DNA of 54,687 nucleotides from assembly GCF_947500325.1 (NCBI RefSeq), contig NZ_CANMRQ010000023.1, forward strand, positions 1 to 54,687. The letters are read 5' to 3'. The position numbers were made by a program, and so were the translations under genes. Shown in pieces: positions 10,886-18,762 of this stretch. Positions within the stretch are counted from its first letter, which is position 1; every line of letters starts with the position of its first letter. This DNA is from an uncultured Lacinutrix sp. (GTDB lineage Bacteria > Bacteroidota > Bacteroidia > Flavobacteriales > Flavobacteriaceae). The notes beneath the pieces were generated by a model. The model did not search any database. It saw only the letters and a program-made list of their open reading frames with translations, and was not told the DNA's origin.

Positions 10886-10893
10886 TAAATTTG
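10886..10893 (+). promoter_or_regulatory. Possible -7 box (TAAATTTG) upstream of the first paralogous lipoprotein
   Basis: It matches TAnnTTTG. A TTG that could be read as an early start (10891) lies inside this box, which argues that translation begins at a later ATG (10909 or 10945). Confidence 0.35.
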
Positions 10894-10944
10894 AATAAAA
10901 AAATAGATATGAAAACAAAAGTAAATGTGGAAAAAAAATCAAAT

Positions 10945-11670
10945 ATGAAAACAATTTTTAAAGTATTGGTATTATTACTATTAGTTTCTTTTCAATCATG
11001 TAGTAAAGAAGAAGTTGAAGAGACTAACTTAGTTGAAGAAAAAGAATCTATAGAAGGAAAGAAAGCTTTTGCAGCTTCAAACAATCAAGCAGAAGAAGGT
11101 ACTCTTGAAAACAAAATGCAATGGGTAGCTTACTTAACAGCTAGGGCATTATTACAAGATAATCCTATTACAGGTAATTTAGCCGAGCAAGATTTTGTAA
11201 ATGTCTTAACAGGAGGTTATACTTCTAATGTAGTAAGGCTTGGCGATTTGCTTAATAGTAGTGATGGAGCTTTTAGAAATGCATTTGCAAAAGAATTTGG
11301 TTATTATAGCAATGTAGATGCTTGTGACACCGATGGAGGTAAACCTAAAGGAGCAGCAATACCTGATGATGAAGGTGATGGTAGATCAAGTTTTTCAGGA
11401 CAAGATAATGAGACGGCTTCTAGAGTAGGTCCATCTTTTCCTTCTAGTGCTGCAGAGATCTATATAAACCAACTTATAAATGATTATAATTTCGAAATAT
11501 ACTTGCCAAATGGATATAATGAAGTTGATAACGTAGTAATATCAACAGCTGTAACTATTGCTCTAATAAACGATGAAGCATACCGTCATACTCCTGGTGC
11601 TTGTAATGTTACTTACATAAACATGACAGCTCAAACACAAGGCAATATAATTATGCTGAGAGAATATTAA
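10945..11670 (+). CDS. Unknown lipoprotein, paralogue 1 of a tandem pair
   Basis: I do not recognise this family. The frame extends upstream, but ATG 10945 gives a clean lipoprotein signal (MKTIFKVLVLLLLVSFQSC, lipobox FQSC, Cys19) matching the start of the second copy; ATG 10909 would add 12 charged residues. The acidic stretch after the Cys (SKEEVEETNLVEE) resembles a surface-export-like signal. The rest is shared with the downstream paralogue: KAFAASNNQAEEGTLENKMQW, VRLGDLLNSSDGAFRNAFA, NVDACDTDGGKP, YINQLINDYNFEIYLPNGY and a C-terminal NMTAQTQGNIIMLREY, plus two conserved Cys outside the lipobox. No membrane segments beyond the signal. Co-location with the LytTR pair suggests regulation by it, which is inference. 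Confidence 0.7.
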   Translation: MKTIFKVLVLLLLVSFQSCSKEEVEETNLVEEKESIEGKKAFAASNNQAEEGTLENKMQWVAYLTARALLQDNPITGNLAEQDFVNVLTGGYTSNVVRLGDLLNSSDGAFRNAFAKEFGYYSNVDACDTDGGKPKGAAIPDDEGDGRSSFSGQDNETASRVGPSFPSSAAEIYINQLINDYNFEIYLPNGYNEVDNVVISTAVTIALINDEAYRHTPGACNVTYINMTAQTQGNIIMLREY

Positions 11671-11762: not shown

Positions 11763-12506
11763 ATGAAAACATTTTTTAAAATATTAGTATTAGTACTATT
11801 AGTTTCTTTTCAATCATGTAGTAAAGGAGAAATTGAAGAGGTTAATCTAGTTGAAGAAAAAAAATCTATTGAGGCTAGTAAAGCTTTTGCAGCTTCAAAC
11901 AATCAAGCAGAAGAAGGTACTCTTGAAAACAAAATGCAATGGGGTGCTTATCTAGTAACACGAGCACTATTTAATAAAGCCGCTGAAGATGATTTTTTAA
12001 ATTTATTAACTAGTAGTTACAATAATAATAATAATAATAATACAGTAAGGCTTGACGATTTGCTTAATAGTAGTAATGGTGCTTTTAGAAATGCTTTTGC
12101 AGAAGCATTTGATTATTATACTAATGTAGATGCTTGTGACACAGATGGAGGTAAACCTAGAGGAGCAGCAGTGCCTGATAATGAGGGTAATAGTAGACCA
12201 GGTTTCCAAGCGCAAAATAATGAGACGACTTCAAGAGTAGGCCAGTCTTTTCCTCCTCCTGCTTCAGATTTATATATAAACCAACTTATAAATAATTATA
12301 ATTTTGAAATATTCTTGCCAAATGGATATGTAGAACTAAAAGAACTAGAAGAACTAGAAGATTTTTACAAAATAATATCAACAGCAGTAACTAATAATCT
12401 TATAACTAATGAAGCGTATAGTCATAGTGAGTATAATTGTCATATTGTTTATACAAACATGACAACTCAAACACAAGGCAATATAGTTATGATGAGAGAA
12501 TATTAA
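11763..12506 (+). CDS. Unknown lipoprotein, paralogue 2 of a tandem pair
   Basis: 247 residues, collinear with the preceding lipoprotein and unknown in function. Signal MKTFFKILVLVLLVSFQSC with lipobox Cys19 and an acidic SKGEIEEVNLVEE tail. Shared blocks include AFAASNNQAEEGTLENKMQW, DACDTDGGKPRGAA, ETTSRVGQSFP and NMTTQTQGNIVMMREY. It differs from copy 1 by a run of seven Asn encoded by (AAT)7 at 12021-12041 and by an inserted ELKELEELED segment near residue 190. The gene is preceded by the LytTR relic and followed by a terminator, so the lipoproteins and regulator may form one transcription unit. Confidence 0.7.
   Translation: MKTFFKILVLVLLVSFQSCSKGEIEEVNLVEEKKSIEASKAFAASNNQAEEGTLENKMQWGAYLVTRALFNKAAEDDFLNLLTSSYNNNNNNNTVRLDDLLNSSNGAFRNAFAEAFDYYTNVDACDTDGGKPRGAAVPDNEGNSRPGFQAQNNETTSRVGQSFPPPASDLYINQLINNYNFEIFLPNGYVELKELEELEDFYKIISTAVTNNLITNEAYSHSEYNCHIVYTNMTTQTQGNIVMMREY
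12021..12041 (+). repeat. (AAT)7 trinucleotide repeat
   Basis: Seven perfect AAT units in frame within the second paralogous lipoprotein, giving seven Asn. The first copy has no such run at the aligned place. Length changes would stay in frame. Confidence 0.9.
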
Positions 12507-12562: not shown

Positions 12563-12719
12563 TGTACTATTAAACTATAATCCAAATATTACTGTTAATT
12601 TAAGTAATACATTATTCGTACTACATAGATTATTAACATTTTAGTACTTTTAAATTTTGATTTATATTATATACAAATGATATTGTCGGAGTATTAATAT
12701 TTTGCCAAGTAATAATTAT

Positions 12720-14390
12720 ATGTTGCATAACTTATACAAATTTTCTAAAACGTTTATAGTAACAGTATTGTTAATGCTTTTTACTGCTTTTACAATACAA
12801 TCTCAAAGCGAATCTGCTGAAGTAATAATTACTGCTATTAAAAATTCTAATTTAGAAGCGTCAAAAACGCATGAATTAGACCTTTTAAATTTAAATCTTA
12901 CTAAGGAAAATATAGCTAACTATTATCTTGATATTGGATATAGCTTTTATAAAAAAGAAAGTTATACTAGAAGCTGCTATTATGTAGATAAAGCGATTCA
13001 TTTTGCAAATATGATTGATGATAATAAACTGCTTTCTTCTGCTTATATAAGGTTGGGAAATGTTTTTCTACTAGATTGGAAAAACCAGCAAGCTATAGAT
13101 GCCTATTATAAATCTATTAATTATTCAAAAAAAATAAAAGATTATAATAATGAAAAAATTGCGCTTACAAATCTAGCTTTAATATTTAGAAGAATGAAGG
13201 AGTATGACAAAGCATTAAAAATATGTAACTCTGCTTCAAAATTTATTAATGAAGATAAAAATCAAATTAACCTTATTACTATAAAAAGTGAAATATATCT
13301 TGATTTAAAACAATTGGATTCTTCCTTATATTCAATAGAAAAGGGTATAGAAATGAGTAAGGCTCTAAATTATAATGCTGGACTTATTGATCTATATATT
13401 AAAAAAGGAATTGTTCATTGTTTTAAAAAAGAATTTAAAAAAGCTGAAAATTATTTAAATATTGCCGAAGAAATAATTAACGATAATAATATTGATAATA
13501 AAAAGTTTTTAATAAATCTTAAATATGCTCAAGCACATTGCCTTTACGAAAAACAAGAATATAATAAAGCTATTTTACAATTAAACGAAGTTGTTAGCCT
13601 TTTTGGAGATTCAATTAATCCTAGAAAAGGGCATGTTCTAGATGCTCACTTATTGCTTTCAAAAAGCTATAAAAAAATAGAGGCGTTCGATGACTATAAA
13701 AAATGGTATGCTAGATACATTCAATTAAATGAAAAATTTCAATTAAATCAAGCACAAACAGTAAGTAAAATATATAAAGAAGATAATGAGTATTTAGACT
13801 CAGAGGTTGAGGCACTTAAAAGTGACAAGCTAAAACGAAAGAAAGCTAATACTTATGTTTTAATAGTTTTTTCTATAGGGATATTTGTCTTGATTGCGTT
13901 TGTTTTAAATTATAAAAGGAAACAAAAATCCAATAAAGTTTTGTTTAATGACTTGTTAAAAAAAGTAGATGCTTTAGAAGCTGCAGACAATAAGAATAAT
14001 ACCTCTACAAAAGAAGTTATTATAGACGACACTAAAGTAGCTACTGTTATTAAAGGCCTTGATAAATTAGAAGAGCAAGAATATTACTTAAATTATAATT
14101 GTAATTTAAGGTCAGTAGCTAAAAAAGTAAAAACAAATGCAACTTACTTATCAAAAATTATTAATACTCATAAAAATAAAAATTTTAACGATTATATTAA
14201 TGACTTAAGAATTGAGTATACAATTAAGCGTTTAAAGAATAATAAACAATTTAGATCATTTTCTATAAAATCTATAGCTACAGAAGTAGGTTACAAAAGC
14301 GATTATTCATTTGCAAAACATTTTAAAGCTAAAACAGGCTTTAATCCATCATATTATATTAAAGAAATAGAAAAGTTAAACGAGATTTAA
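12720..14390 (+). CDS. Membrane-spanning TPR/AraC-type transcription regulator
   Basis: 556 residues from ATG 12720; an in-frame TTG at 12702 is less likely. An N-terminal signal or anchor (FSKTFIVTVLLMLFTAFTIQSQ) leads to TPR repeats (about 45-330, such as AIDAYYKSINYSKK and AENYLNIAEEI). One membrane helix follows (TYVLIVFSIGIFVLIAFVL, about 380-400), then a C-terminal AraC-type double helix-turn-helix (about 460-556: LRSVAKKVKTNATYLSKIIN and IKSIATEVGYKSDYSFAKHFKAKTGFNPSYY). The design puts a TPR sensor in the periplasm and the DNA-binding domain in the cytoplasm, a one-component regulator common in Bacteroidota. It lies just upstream of two small peptide genes and a LanC gene, so it may control them; no binding site was identified. 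Confidence 0.88.
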   Translation: MLHNLYKFSKTFIVTVLLMLFTAFTIQSQSESAEVIITAIKNSNLEASKTHELDLLNLNLTKENIANYYLDIGYSFYKKESYTRSCYYVDKAIHFANMIDDNKLLSSAYIRLGNVFLLDWKNQQAIDAYYKSINYSKKIKDYNNEKIALTNLALIFRRMKEYDKALKICNSASKFINEDKNQINLITIKSEIYLDLKQLDSSLYSIEKGIEMSKALNYNAGLIDLYIKKGIVHCFKKEFKKAENYLNIAEEIINDNNIDNKKFLINLKYAQAHCLYEKQEYNKAILQLNEVVSLFGDSINPRKGHVLDAHLLLSKSYKKIEAFDDYKKWYARYIQLNEKFQLNQAQTVSKIYKEDNEYLDSEVEALKSDKLKRKKANTYVLIVFSIGIFVLIAFVLNYKRKQKSNKVLFNDLLKKVDALEAADNKNNTSTKEVIIDDTKVATVIKGLDKLEEQEYYLNYNCNLRSVAKKVKTNATYLSKIINTHKNKNFNDYINDLRIEYTIKRLKNNKQFRSFSIKSIATEVGYKSDYSFAKHFKAKTGFNPSYYIKEIEKLNEI

Positions 14391-14535
14391 TTAGATTAAA
14401 TATGAACCCTATTTTGTTTAATTTAGGGTTTACAAACTATGATATCATTGACATTAATGTTATTATTATTCCAAGGTTATATAATATAGATTACTAGTAT
14501 TATGTAAAATATTAATCATTTAAAATAATAACACC

Positions 14536-14703
14536 ATGAAAAAACAAGTAGAAAAAAAGATAGCTTTGAAAAAACTAGTCATAGCTAAGATTAACTCTAA
14601 CATAATGTGCAATATTAAAGGAGGTGATTGTTTGCCAACAGAGCCAGGTTGGTATGAGCATTTGGAATCTGACGCTCATTGTGATGGAAGAGAAACTCCT
14701 TAA
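14536..14703 (+). CDS. Candidate RiPP (lanthipeptide-like) precursor 1, double-glycine leader
   Basis: A 55-residue ORF starting ATG 14536 and ending TAA 14701-14703. The leader is basic and amphipathic (MKKQVEKKIALKKLVIAKIN, then SNIMCNIKGG), resembling the KLxLxKxxIxxL...GG leaders of Bacteroidota class I lanthipeptides. The core after Gly29-Gly30 is DCLPTEPGWYEHLESDAHC followed by DGRETP, with Cys32, Cys49, Thr35, Ser45 and Thr54 available for thioether rings. It is followed at once by a strong terminator, and the LanC gene lies 460 bases further on. The leader pattern is shared with the second peptide (both have a basic IxKxxSNxI segment). That it is dehydrated and cyclised is inference; no dehydratase gene is in the window. 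Confidence 0.68.
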   Translation: MKKQVEKKIALKKLVIAKINSNIMCNIKGGDCLPTEPGWYEHLESDAHCDGRETP

Positions 14704-14727
14704 TATTTAATTTTTTAAATAGTAAAT

Positions 14728-14756
14728 AAAAGCGTTGTATCTACAACGCTTTTTTT
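14728..14756 (+). terminator. Terminator after peptide precursor 1
   Basis: A 12-bp stem (AAAAGCGTTGTA at 14728-14739 with TACAACGCTTTT at 14742-14753) with a very tight loop and a T-run after it. It suggests peptide 1 is made from its own short transcript. Confidence 0.88.
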
Positions 14757-14911
14757 ATTACCCTATTTTATTCAATTTAAAGTACTCTGTCTTTTCATTT
14801 CGCTTATGCTTCTTTAATTTTAAATCAGCAATATTGTTAGTAAATATCATACAAGGGTAAACCGAAAACCTTTTAATAGAGTAGGTAATCTAAATTTTAA
14901 TTATTAATACC

Positions 14912-15061
14912 ATGAAAAAAGCATTAAAAAACTTAAAGTTGAATAAAGAAGTCATTAGTAAGTTGGAATCAAATAAAATCACAGGTAAAGGAGCTACTCA
15001 TTGCTGCCCTACTGCCGATGCTTTTAATTCATGTCCTCCTCCAGGAAGACAATGTTTTTAA
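14912..15061 (+). CDS. Candidate RiPP (lanthipeptide-like) precursor 2, Cys-rich core
   Basis: A 49-residue ORF from ATG 14912 to TAA 15059-15061. The leader MKKALKNLKLNKEVISKLES then NKITGKGA has the LxLNKxxIxxL pattern typical of Bacteroidota class I lanthipeptide and related precursors, and aligns with the leader of the first peptide. It lacks a Gly-Gly; cleavage after GKGA is the probable equivalent. The core THCCPTADAFNSCPPPGRQCF holds Cys31, Cys32, Cys41 and Cys48 with Thr29, Thr34 and Ser40, so up to three thioether rings are possible. The gene lies 100 bases before LanC and has its own terminator. Product activity is unknown. Confidence 0.7.
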   Translation: MKKALKNLKLNKEVISKLESNKITGKGATHCCPTADAFNSCPPPGRQCF

Positions 15062-15091: not shown

Positions 15092-15124
15092 ACAAGCTGT
15101 CAATTAATTTGGCAGCTTGTTTTA
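15092..15124 (+). terminator. Terminator after peptide precursor 2
   Basis: Stem ACAAGCTG (15092-15099) with CAGCTTGT (15113-15120), extended by T-G and C-G pairs, then TTT. It separates the peptide transcript from LanC, which starts 38 bases later. Confidence 0.75.
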
Positions 15125-15161: not shown

Positions 15162-16379
15162 ATGAATCAAAGCACGTATTTATCTAATAAACTTGAAGAA
15201 ATAAATGAAATTCTTAGTCAAAATTATAAAGAAGTTGAAGATATAGGTGTTTTAACAGGATCTACTGGTATTGCTTTATTTCATTTTTATTATTCAAAAC
15301 TTAAAAGGCAAGAGATAAATACAGATATAGGCATGGAAATTATCTCAGAATCAATTTCAAAAATCAATGAAGGTTATAATATACCTACGTTTTGTAAAGG
15401 AATTGCTGGGGCTGCTTGGACAATAGAACTGTCTAAAGAGGAAGGATTTATTGATATCGATTCTGATGCTTTATTAAGTAGTCTGGATGGCTACTTAGAG
15501 AATTCTTTAAGTATTGAAGCGCAATATAATTTTTACGATTTTCTTCATGGTGTGATAGGAATAGGGTATTATTTTTTAAAACGTTATTTAAATACCGAAT
15601 CTGTAAAACTTAAGGCTAACTATAAAAAACTCTTATTAAAAATTATTAAGCAATTACGCGAAGCCGCTCAAATAGATGGAGGTACTGCTAAATGGGAATC
15701 TAATCTCATTTTTGAAGAAAAATTAAGAGGCTATAACCTTAGTTTATCCCATGGAATATCTAGTATTATTAATTTCCTAACTCGTCTTTCAGAACACAGT
15801 GATTTTAAAGTAATCACTCTTCCATTATTACAAAAGGCAATTAATTATGTTTTACAAAACGAGAATAATTCAGTGACAATATTTTCTTGTTTTCCAGACT
15901 GGATAACTGTAAACAATGAAAAAAGTGAAAGCGCTAGACTAGCATGGTGTTATGGAGATTTAGGAGTTGCTATTTCTTTATGGAAAGCTGGTAAGGTACT
16001 TGTAAATACAGAATTATGTGATAAGGCACTTACTATTCTTAAGCATACTACTAAATGTGTAGATGCCAAAGAGGCTAGAATTATGGATGCTGGTCTTTGT
16101 CATGGTGCTTATGGTGTAATACATATATATAATTATATGTATAAAGAAACGCAAGAGATTATATTTAAAAAAGCAGCTCAGCATTGGTTAGAAATAGCTA
16201 TAAACATGGCTATTCCAGAACAAGGCTATGCCGGATATGGTAAATGGCATGGTGGACCTAATCCGGGATGGGATCCAGAGGTTAATCTTCTAGAAGGTAT
16301 ATCTGGTATTGGCTTGGCTATAATATCTTATATAGCTCCTTTTAATGCTAAATGGGATGAGTGCTTAATGATTGGATAA
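15162..16379 (+). CDS. LanC-family lanthionine synthetase (peptide cyclase)
   Basis: 405 residues, the usual size for a stand-alone LanC. Zinc ligands are Cys263 in WCYG and Cys313-His314 in CHGAYG, as in NisC (Cys284, Cys330-His331). Other NisC active-site residues have counterparts at matching spacing: Asp126 in FYDFLHG, His197 in SLSHG, Arg259 four residues before the zinc Cys, and Tyr264 after it. The GxxG-type repeats (GSTGIALFH, HGVIGIGYY, EGISGIGLA) fit the alpha/alpha toroid. The enzyme should add Cys thiols to dehydrated Ser/Thr in the two nearby peptides. No LanB, LanT or LanP is in the window, so dehydration must be supplied elsewhere or the enzyme does something else. Converges with the next gene, 13 bases apart. 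Confidence 0.92.
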   Translation: MNQSTYLSNKLEEINEILSQNYKEVEDIGVLTGSTGIALFHFYYSKLKRQEINTDIGMEIISESISKINEGYNIPTFCKGIAGAAWTIELSKEEGFIDIDSDALLSSLDGYLENSLSIEAQYNFYDFLHGVIGIGYYFLKRYLNTESVKLKANYKKLLLKIIKQLREAAQIDGGTAKWESNLIFEEKLRGYNLSLSHGISSIINFLTRLSEHSDFKVITLPLLQKAINYVLQNENNSVTIFSCFPDWITVNNEKSESARLAWCYGDLGVAISLWKAGKVLVNTELCDKALTILKHTTKCVDAKEARIMDAGLCHGAYGVIHIYNYMYKETQEIIFKKAAQHWLEIAINMAIPEQGYAGYGKWHGGPNPGWDPEVNLLEGISGIGLAIISYIAPFNAKWDECLMIG

Positions 16380-16392
16380 GGTAATAGCTTTT

Positions 16393-18762
16393 TTATTTAG
16401 AACTAAACCCAAGAGAAAATTTAAACTCAAAATTATCATTTGCATTAGGTAACTTATAATCTCCATAACGATAAAAAGCACCAACACCCAATCCAATAGA
16501 ACCAATATTCATATAATTCATTCTATAAATATTTCTTAATTCTAATCCAGTTTCTAAAAAAACTTTATTTTTTGTGTTGAAGCCTATATTTTCATGTTTA
16601 AAACTGTCTTTTAGACTTCCATAACCTAAATTGTTATGCATAATTAAATCTGGTTGAAACGTTCCTGATTTTATTAATAAGCCTCCAAAATTATGTCTTG
16701 TAAATAGGTTTATAGATGCATCCGACAAAAATTCATAGGGTTGTAAGGTTTGAAAGGTGTTTTTTGCAATTATAAATGAGCCAGAACCTTGGCTACCTTC
16801 TCCAGTAAATAATAATCCATAAGGGAGAGAAGTGTCTATATAGCCAGCTTCTAGCCTATAACTAGTAATACCTATGTTTTTGGACTCAAATCGATGATCT
16901 AAGCTAAATCTATAAGCATTATAATTAAAGTCACTATCAAATAAATTTTTTATGCCTTTTGAATAAGTAAAACTTAAAACAGGAGCACCATTATCAACAC
17001 GTATTTTATTGCCAAAAGAGTTTATTAGCGCTTCTCTAAAATAATATTTAAGATTTAAATTAAATTCAGAATTCTTATATGCTGTGATTAAAGTATTGTC
17101 ATTATTAAATTGATAGTCATACTTTGGAGTTGTATTGGTGGTGCTAAGTTTTAAATTCCAATAAAAGTTGCGAATTAACTTTAATTTTGTTTCAAAACTA
17201 AAGCTTTTTGTTTGATCAAATTTTTCAGCTTGAAAACCTCTGTAAGAAAGTGGTTTCCATTTTTTTGAGATAGGGTTTGAACCAACTTCTCTTAATTCGT
17301 TTTCATATTTAAATGAAAATGAAATATCTTTTTTGGAAGGGATTTTAGCTTTTATTTCTGCACCATATTTCCAAGCTTCATCTTTAAAACCATATCCCGC
17401 AAAACCACCAATAGAAACATGTTTTAAAATATCATCATTAGTATAGAATCCAGTTCCTAGACGAGTGCCTTCATATTTATTAGCTTGTACTAACTTTGTT
17501 AAATCTAAATCAACATATTTAAACCTGTATTTTCCACTAATAAGGCTTTCCATAATTTTTAACTTTCTATCCAAATTATATTTTTCGCCAATACTATCAA
17601 GAAATTTATAAGTGCTTAGCTCTTTTTTATTTAATACTTCAACTCTATTTTTATTCCAAAAATCGTCATCTTTGTTAGTGGCATCTTTTAAAAAAGTAAG
17701 AGTTTCAAAAGAAAAATCAATGGGTTTTAATGGGATGCCTGTTTTTATATCGCTTAGGTAGCTTTTACCAGTGTAATTAATAGATATGTTGGCATCTGTG
17801 CCTACTGTAATTTCAAAATTTAATTGCTCAGGAAACCAGTATTTGTTATTTACATATGCATATTTTTGCTGAATTTTAATTGACACTTTTGTTTTGTTAA
17901 AAGGAGTTGCCTCAACATTTTGTACAGCATATTTATTAGAATTAATATATAATAGGCCTTTCAGTCCTTCGATGTTTTTGTTTTTTTTGGGTTTGAAAGA
18001 AATTATAAAAACAGTATCATTTTCTCTAACAATTTCTTCTTCTAAGACAAAATTATATTTCTTTAAGCTTCCTTTGCTAATTGGATTTAAGTAGTTTATG
18101 TCGTAAAGTAAAATGTTGTTTTCGTAAAAAGAAAAAGGTTGAAAAGTAGTAGGAAGAAAAGCGAAATTTGGATGCTTAAAACCCGATGTCTTTGTAGCAA
18201 TAACTTCATCTTCACTAAAATTAGGCTTTAAATACTTTCGTTTTGAAATGGTTTCTGTTATAAACAAGTTCTTGTCCTTAAAAACAGAACCTAGAGAATC
18301 TTTTGTTAGTTTATTAGCGCTATCGAATACAACCTTGCTATAAGATTTATAGGAAAAAGAGTTAATTTTTAAAGGGTTATTTAAATCTTTATTTTTAATA
18401 ACATTCCTAATAATTCTATTTGCGGGATTTTCGGCCGAATTTAAAACGACTTCTTCTAACTTGTTAAGCTTTGGTGTTAAAGTAATAATATTATTATTCA
18501 AAGAAGAAAGAGAAACCGTTTTAGGAGTGTAACCAATATAACTTATGGTAATGGTTTCTATTTGTTTTTTATTTACTTTAAAAACACCATCAATATCAGA
18601 TATGGTTCCTGTTTTAGAATTGTTGTCAAAAATAATATTTGCAAAAGCAATAGGTTCTTTTGTTTTTAAATCAACGATACTAAGTTTTGTGTTAGTTTGA
18701 GAAAATGAGTTGTAGACAATAATAAAAAATAATAAAATAAGTCTATTTGTTCGATTACACAT
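16393..18762 (-). CDS. DUF5686/carboxypeptidase regulatory-like outer-membrane barrel protein
   Basis: 789 residues. A signal peptide ending NSFSQ is followed by a CarboxypepD_reg-like beta domain (about 23-95, LSIVDLKTKEPIAFANIIF ... GTISDIDGVFKV ... ISYIGYTPKTVSLS), then the DUF5686 region starting AENPANRIIRNVIKNKDLNNP and running to the end as alternating aromatic beta strands, ending FKFSLGFSSK. The family is widespread in Bacteroidota, predicted to be an outer-membrane barrel, and its substrate is unknown. It is not a canonical SusC (no plug domain seen). It stands alone on the minus strand, convergent with LanC and divergent from the malic enzyme gene. Confidence 0.85.
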   Translation of the reverse strand: MCNRTNRLILLFFIIVYNSFSQTNTKLSIVDLKTKEPIAFANIIFDNNSKTGTISDIDGVFKVNKKQIETITISYIGYTPKTVSLSSLNNNIITLTPKLNKLEEVVLNSAENPANRIIRNVIKNKDLNNPLKINSFSYKSYSKVVFDSANKLTKDSLGSVFKDKNLFITETISKRKYLKPNFSEDEVIATKTSGFKHPNFAFLPTTFQPFSFYENNILLYDINYLNPISKGSLKKYNFVLEEEIVRENDTVFIISFKPKKNKNIEGLKGLLYINSNKYAVQNVEATPFNKTKVSIKIQQKYAYVNNKYWFPEQLNFEITVGTDANISINYTGKSYLSDIKTGIPLKPIDFSFETLTFLKDATNKDDDFWNKNRVEVLNKKELSTYKFLDSIGEKYNLDRKLKIMESLISGKYRFKYVDLDLTKLVQANKYEGTRLGTGFYTNDDILKHVSIGGFAGYGFKDEAWKYGAEIKAKIPSKKDISFSFKYENELREVGSNPISKKWKPLSYRGFQAEKFDQTKSFSFETKLKLIRNFYWNLKLSTTNTTPKYDYQFNNDNTLITAYKNSEFNLNLKYYFREALINSFGNKIRVDNGAPVLSFTYSKGIKNLFDSDFNYNAYRFSLDHRFESKNIGITSYRLEAGYIDTSLPYGLLFTGEGSQGSGSFIIAKNTFQTLQPYEFLSDASINLFTRHNFGGLLIKSGTFQPDLIMHNNLGYGSLKDSFKHENIGFNTKNKVFLETGLELRNIYRMNYMNIGSIGLGVGAFYRYGDYKLPNANDNFEFKFSLGFSSK

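Follow-up and report, generated by a model that had tools for sequence, protein, structure and literature searches.

Two small genes between a membrane regulator and lanC

The locus analysed here raises the question of what is encoded by two very short open reading frames (ORFs) placed between a gene for a membrane-bound regulator and a gene for a LanC cyclase, and of how such products could be modified where no LanB dehydratase gene stands beside them. The window, i.e., the whole stretch of DNA that was analysed (54,687 nt), corresponds to the complete contig C23 of a 4.57 Mb genome assembled in 130 contigs.

The regulator gene (12702–14390, plus strand) encodes a protein of 562 aa when read from a TTG codon, with an ATG 6 codons in, and has matches to TPR_12 and HTH_18. 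It is followed on the same strand by pep1 (14536–14703, 55 aa), pep2 (14912–15061, 49 aa) and lanC (15162–16379, 405 aa; PF05147, E = 1.1e-45). A sequence-only reading had placed two ORFs (55 and 49 codons) between an AraC-type membrane regulator and LanC, and their exact coordinates and strand were reproduced. The leader of pep1 ends with GG and precedes the core DCLPTEPGWYEHLESDAHCDGRETP, and pep2 belongs to a family with the pattern (T/S)HCCPT..SCPPPGxQC(Y/F). The core counts given in the same reading (2 Cys and 3 Ser/Thr for pep1, 4 Cys and 3 Ser/Thr for pep2) also hold, each peptide combining a leader with a core that contains both Cys and Ser/Thr, as in class I lanthipeptides. The leader pattern IxKxxSNxI proposed there holds for pep2, whereas in pep1 the last place is taken by M, and the SN pair is not retained in orthologues; the feature common to both leaders is LxLxKxxIxxL-like with the end at or near GG. 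The NCBIfam model lant_leader_L1a (NF038153) matched pep1 with E = 4.7e-4 and 20.3 bits and pep2 with E = 0.017 and 15.3 bits, both short of the curated 22-bit cut-off.

The order regulator, pep1, pep2 and LanC was conserved in the genomes G138, G148 (both from the same family as the window genome) and G177. The pep1 peptides of these genomes were 68%, 67% and 49% identical to that of the window, respectively, and the pep2 peptides 80%, 79% and 59%. Between the window and G138, the differences at codon positions 1, 2 and 3 numbered 15, 7 and 27 in pep1 (53 codons) and 7, 6 and 16 in pep2 (49 codons). Pairwise dN/dS ranged from 0.13 to 0.56 for pep1 (five of six pairs, one being saturated) and from 0.04 to 0.30 for pep2 (six pairs), figures that are soft because dS was high in all pairs. 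Chance ORFs were ruled out by the conservation and constraint. The conserved core residues were largely Cys and Ser/Thr, as lanthionine chemistry requires, and both pep1 and pep2 are very probably genuine precursors of modified peptides.

Two adjacent lipoprotein-like ORFs upstream of the regulator gene (10891–11670 and 11763–12506) look by eye like recent paralogues, and a family search gave no informative match for them. On the other side, a DUF5686 gene (16393–18762) separates lanC from a malic enzyme gene, which directly follows lanC at the G138 locus (L033).

LanC and the distribution of the cassette

Residues D126, H197, R259, C263, C313 and H314 of the window LanC were invariant among the eight LanCs aligned. 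They aligned with the NisC segments YD, GLAHG, R..WCYG and CHG, which hold the zinc and active-site residues, and all are retained in this PF05147 protein. In Bacteroidales, LanCs without LanB have been reported, and in those, unlike in the window LanC, key residues were lost according to the parts of PMC10352776 used here.

A search of genome contigs with an alignment of four LanC sequences resulted in 24 loci, one of which, the short fragment L074, was left out of the further work. With the window LanC as the query, matches were found in 11 of the 199 genomes of the family. In a quick tree of 30 LanC proteins, built without bootstrap and omitting the L017 LanC from contig C7, 14 formed one clade (SH-aLRT 96), comprising those of the window, L051–L061 (the first of two LanCs in L054), L070 and L072. 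Profiles of pep1 and pep2 were built from four sequences each, and the training sequences are included in all counts. The profile search revealed 27 pep2 peptides above 60 bits and 11 pep1 peptides above 40 bits, in both cases with the window peptide included. The 27 pep2 cores contained PPPG (25 cores) or PPRG (two) and ended with CY, CF or CL, followed in one core by an additional G; the most frequent core was THCCPTxGALNSCPPPGxQC(Y/F). The pep1 cores were far more variable.

Within the LanC clade, pep2 was strong at 13 of 14 loci (12 of the 13 other loci scored above 40 bits, and the window pep2 is a training sequence), with a divergent copy of 24 bits at L055, and among the 31 loci searched no pep2 above 40 bits was found outside the clade. 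A pep1 gene was detected at 11 of the 14 clade loci. The L070 locus is truncated by the start of its contig, and L058 and L061 have no pep1 although their flanks are complete and pep2 and LanC are retained. The usual order was regulator, pep1, pep2 (1–4 copies) and LanC, with LanC located 3' of the peptides at all 14 loci. In the same genus, the cassette was found in one of 13 genomes, the window genome itself, and is therefore patchy. The proposal that the two ORFs are lanthipeptide precursors was supported by these data, as homologous leader–core peptides adjoin LanC in other genomes, where they had been predicted to occur, LanB is linked at half of the clade loci and the core residues are conserved.

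A dehydratase and a probable exporter elsewhere in the genome

The only PF04738 match of the window genome, a LanB, was located on contig C2 (507470–509437, E = 3.6e-144), and this search of the genome showed no LanB on C23. Neighbours of the C2 gene include a separate PF14028 gene (E = 3.4e-75), a gene for a C39 peptidase–ABC transporter, another lanC and, by eye, an HlyD-like gene. Both parts of a class I dehydratase (PF04738 and PF14028) are thus encoded in the genome, unclustered with the precursors. As no LanB is present on the window contig, dehydration, and probably also export, would have to act in trans.

Among the 14 clade loci, LanB was found within about 7 kb of LanC at seven (L053, L054, L056, L057, L060, L070 and L072). 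At the other seven (window, L051, L052, L055, L058, L059 and L061), no LanB was seen close to the cassette, with a visible flank of only about 3 kb on the downstream side for L052 and about 5 kb on the upstream side for L055. For each of these seven unlinked cassettes, LanB was present elsewhere in the genome. Cultured relatives include Dokdonia pacifica DSM 25597, in which LanB is linked, and Aquimarina algiphila M91, in which it is unlinked. L055 and L070 come from one MAG, in which LanB occurs as two pieces on two contigs that may be one gene. Of the 199 family genomes, 18 held LanB; these comprised 9 of the 11 LanC-matching genomes versus 9 of the remaining 188 (Fisher p = 2e-9, relatedness ignored). 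The two LanC-matching genomes without a LanB match were G122, with a LanC 35% identical, and G162, where the end of a contig holds a fragment of LanC.

In the LanB tree, the C2 protein paired with the G138 LanB (99), the cassette-linked G148 LanB being next (96); the cassette-linked LanBs did not group together as a whole (3 changes needed for a single clade). Action of the C2 LanB on pep1 and pep2 in trans is suggested mainly because its nearest kin stands beside the cassette in the relative G148. Against this, the leaders encoded on C23 may not be substrates of the C2 LanB, and the C2 LanC could serve C2 precursors only.

Near the cassette-linked LanB of G148, a gene in L034 (599–2218, contig C40) encodes a 540-aa protein that combines C39-like, VKOR and thioredoxin domains, a composition compatible with the formation of disulfides in peptides with GG leaders.

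Candidate operators, hairpins and an RNA element

Upstream of pep1, an imperfect palindrome, ACCCTATTTTGTTTAATTTAGGGT, was identified as a candidate operator (14406–14429, plus strand), with a second copy matching the pattern upstream of pep2 (14760–14783, plus strand); the consensus was derived from these own sites. The pattern ACCCTATTTTRTTYAATTTA occurred twice in the window, at these two positions, with 0 mismatches each. The expectation at up to 3 mismatches was 0.16 matches, and 2 of 100 shuffles reached two. The whole genome contained three further sites with up to 2 mismatches versus one for a reversed control pattern. In other cassettes, RCCCTATTTTNNNNAATNTAGGGY was found with up to 3 mismatches upstream of pep1 at 9 of 11 loci, 97–140 nt before the start (with poor matches at L055 and L052), and with up to 4 mismatches upstream of 15 of 29 pep2 genes, mostly 151–163 nt before the start. 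These counts are partly circular because the pattern was drawn from the same sequences. Better hints of an operator are the constancy of its position and the deviating sequence beside the second regulator of Dokdonia, where the palindrome reads ACCGTATTTT...AAAATACGG.

Terminator-like hairpins were located on the plus strand 3' of pep1 (14728–14753, 11 pairs) and 3' of pep2 (15092–15120, 12 pairs). The search detected three such sites in 1 kb, two of them being both strands of one hairpin, against a mean of 0.1 in shuffles. In the G138 counterpart of the hairpin after pep1, changes in one arm of the stem are matched by changes in the other, as read from the alignment by eye. With a strict script demanding a perfect stem, a hairpin with a T run was present in 8 of 11 pep1–pep2 gaps and absent from those of L055, L056 and L059; that of L072 is the palindrome and not a separate terminator. 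A sigma-70 promoter scan gave 6 sites versus 6.9 in shuffles, with a consensus that is not the promoter type usual for Bacteroidota.

Between the second operator and pep2, 25 nt before the start codon, lies a DUF805b RNA element (RF02914, clan CL00115; 14852–14887, plus strand). It scored 44.7 bits (E = 2.3e-11) against a gathering score of 35.6 and was also recovered in a whole-genome search. The element includes a hairpin and a GAGUAGG tail. The element is reportedly derived from a 2017 paper. At the gathering score, DUF805b preceded 23 of 29 pep2 genes versus none of 11 cassette pep1 genes (Fisher p = 5e-6, relatedness ignored), and it also preceded all three pep1-like genes of the second Dokdonia cassettes. 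In the window genome, at least 11 sites (L089–L099) exceeded the threshold among the 150 of 3317 candidates that were scored. The next gene, displayed for 7 of the 11 sites, was pep2 or one of six other proteins, and the elements lay 20–32 nt before the start codons. DUF805b is therefore a general element used here and not one specific to lanthipeptides. Among the papers searched, none on DUF805b and no link between it and lanthipeptide precursors was found. The presence of the element before pep2 and not before cassette pep1 provides a defined target set for an uncharacterised RNA. The sites in the window genome, at least 11, point to a wider regulon.

The regulator and its association with pep1

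The regulator contains two hydrophobic stretches (residues 14–32 and 384–402), with the TPR matches before the second one and the HTH after it. A homologue was encoded upstream of pep1 at all 11 pep1 loci, and the regulator was missing at L058 and L061, the two complete loci without pep1. At L072 (G177), the regulator gene carries one internal TAA (L035, G177:C14:10968–12539), and pep1, pep2 and LanC are intact. In Dokdonia, loci L057, L060 and L070 encode a second regulator with its own pep1-like gene directly after it. Since pep1 tracks the regulator and not pep2, it may be a signal and not a second end product. That the locus makes two products, as had been proposed from the sequence, agrees with the two precursors with different cores but is for this reason one of two readings.

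Regulators of this kind were located by eye within about 5 kb of LanB in at least 9 of the 18 LanB genomes, with up to 7 candidates scored per genome. A leader-like ORF was present within 700 nt after the regulator homologue at 8 of 30 loci. When the window and its three orthologues, used for training of the model, were removed, the proportion was 4 of 26 versus 1 of 26 control regions, which hints at signal–receptor pairing and does not prove it. Regulator homologues were rejected as a general marker of such peptides, given these proportions and the lack of such a neighbour for most distant homologues.

Proposed pathway and alternative readings

The locus is probably a lanthipeptide cassette of class I that encodes precursors and a cyclase of its own and is served by a dehydratase and an exporter in trans, with the following mechanism. 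Expression of pep1 and pep2 is most likely activated by the TPR-AraC regulator via the common palindromic operator, and the hairpins after both genes would make the peptide transcripts abundant relative to lanC. DUF805b may add control at the RNA level to pep2 alone. The only LanB of the genome (PF04738 and PF14028, two genes on C2) would bind the LxLxK-type leaders and dehydrate core Ser/Thr of pep1 and pep2 by glutamylation and subsequent elimination, and the local LanC would add core Cys to the dehydrated residues, closing the rings. For pep2, three rings at most are predicted; with 4 Cys and 3 Ser/Thr, one Cys would therefore stay free or go elsewhere. The C2 C39 peptidase–ABC transporter would cut after GG (GA in pep2) and export the products.

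Alternatively, pep1 and pep2 could be partners in a two-component lantibiotic acting jointly on target cells. Dissimilar cores under one operator type, with one pep1 accompanied by one to four pep2, are compatible with this, but the two genes do not occur in a 1:1 ratio, pep1 cores vary much more than pep2 cores and the complete loci L058 and L061 encode pep2 without pep1; moreover, the two-component lanthipeptides named in the parts of PMC7268733 and PMC12328550 used here are class II, and the reading appears doubtful. Its strictly obligate form was rejected, since the two peptides are not always encoded together, L058 and L061 holding pep2 and LanC with neither pep1 nor the regulator. It is also improbable that the cassette is a remnant which lost LanB and whose peptides are no longer modified. 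The linkage of LanB at 7 of 14 sister loci and not in the window would agree with such a loss, but all seven unlinked cassettes occur in genomes that hold LanB, and the intact, constrained pep1, pep2 and LanC together with the kept catalytic residues led to the rejection of a decayed locus. A weak match of pep1 to the leader model of radical SAM-modified RiPPs (TIGR04149, E = 7.7e-4, 19.3 bits, cut-off 25) raises the possibility that the peptides are substrates of another RiPP system, e.g., of a radical SAM enzyme, and that LanC is incidental. This is highly improbable given that LanC follows the peptides at 14 of 14 clade loci, that its phylogeny matches the pep2 family and that half of these 14 loci have LanB as a linked neighbour.

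A further reading is compatible with the class I cassette and changes the role of pep1, which would be exported, processed and sensed by a periplasmic TPR domain of the regulator, with activation of both promoters, pep2 being the effector or main product. The presence of pep1 at all 11 regulator loci and its lack at the complete, regulator-less L058 and L061 argue for such a role, as do the TPR and HTH matches on opposite sides of the transmembrane segment and the second Dokdonia regulators, each with its own pep1-like gene and a differently spelled palindrome. Against it, the regulator is much more widespread than peptides of this type (4 of 26 versus 1 of 26 control regions), L072 keeps pep1 although its regulator carries a stop, and the binding of pep1 by the regulator is putative; this role of pep1 is proposed tentatively. 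The pairing of regulator and pep1 makes the peptide–receptor hypothesis directly testable. Rather unlikely as a whole is an extended scheme, in which modified pep1 would be the ligand of a transmembrane TPR-AraC receptor, a Gram-negative counterpart of peptide quorum sensing, controlling pep1 and pep2 via one palindrome with pep2 further gated by DUF805b, and in which several cassettes per genome would share one class I dehydratase and transporter in trans.

RRNPP receptors of Gram-positive bacteria are soluble cytoplasmic TPR proteins with an N-terminal XRE-type HTH, and some members lack the HTH. The window regulator resembles them in the coupling of TPR to a DNA-binding domain and in the adjoining peptide gene, but falls outside their definition, since its HTH is C-terminal and of the AraC type (HTH_18) and is separated from the TPR part by a transmembrane segment; its ligand is putative. 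An analogy between TPR proteins and pheromone sensing is mentioned in the part of PMC10352776 used here.

Comparison with known lanthipeptide systems

The statements on published systems below refer to the parts of the cited papers used in this work. Walker et al. 2020 (PMC7268733) described Bacteroidetes class I systems with LxLxKx5L leaders, GG ends and C39 proteases, naming pinensin as the characterised Bacteroidota member. The window shares with these systems the LxLxK-type leader, the GG end, the C39-type protease, class I enzymes and a LanC similar to LanM cyclase domains (TIGR03897 match, 7.9e-23), and differs in that its LanB is unclustered with the precursors. The SCPPPG cores, the separate promoters and terminators and DUF805b are features of the window not described in those parts of PMC7268733. 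Neither the SCPPPG core family nor its link with DUF805b was named in the consulted parts of PMC7268733, PMC12328550, PMC3091789, PMC10734526, PMC10352776 and PMC9993889; the family may have been listed before, e.g., in the pinensin or Pedobacter lusitanus literature.

In the same survey (PMC7268733, in the part used), LanCs without a dehydratase within seven genes were set aside as 3052 'unclassified' proteins, of which 1392 remained after removal of likely non-RiPP proteins and contig ends. Gene-cluster searches are prone to drop precursors and a cyclase that lack a nearby dehydratase, and the present data suggest that some dehydratase-less LanC genes belong to working class I systems with LanB elsewhere. 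They also provide a search rule at the genome level, i.e., the LanC clade and the leader family with LanB anywhere in the genome.

Prochlorosins are class II products in which one enzyme serves many scattered precursors (PMC7268733 and PMC12328550, parts used). As in that system, one modifying enzyme appears to serve genomically distant precursors; in contrast, the window system is class I, has a dedicated cyclase beside the precursors, would share only the dehydratase (and exporter) and uses another leader family. With two-component lantibiotics, for which the examples in the same part of PMC7268733 are class II, the window shares the dissimilar cores side by side, but its enzymes are class I, pep2 occurs without pep1 at two loci and any synergy is putative.

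Further precursor-like loci in the genome

Precursor-like ORFs were also identified with the leader model and scripts on contigs C1, C2 and C3, 4 of 11 model matches exceeding the cut-off. On the minus strand of C3 (L015, 8050–11110), a second TPR-AraC regulator is followed by precursor-like peptides A, B, A' and B'. The two B genes are preceded by DUF805b-like sequences scoring below the Rfam threshold. No LanB or LanC was found in this region, the matches of the genome being located on C2, C7 and C23. The combination of further precursor-like loci with a single LanB thus resembles, within class I, the design in which one enzyme serves many precursors.

In L014 (7467–12616), L016 (1238–8129) and L040 (9573–16057), two of them in the window genome, leader-like small ORFs adjoin genes for CHAT-TPR proteins (PF12770). 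Sigma-factor-like and small lipoprotein-like genes were seen by eye at all three, and the L040 region also holds LanC. These loci look like a recurring cassette of CHAT-TPR and GG-leader peptides. On C7, a DUF805 RNA (RF03081, 70.4 bits), which is related to DUF805b, was detected in L017 (4656–9567) just before a 489-aa repeat-like ORF that neighbours the third LanC of the genome.
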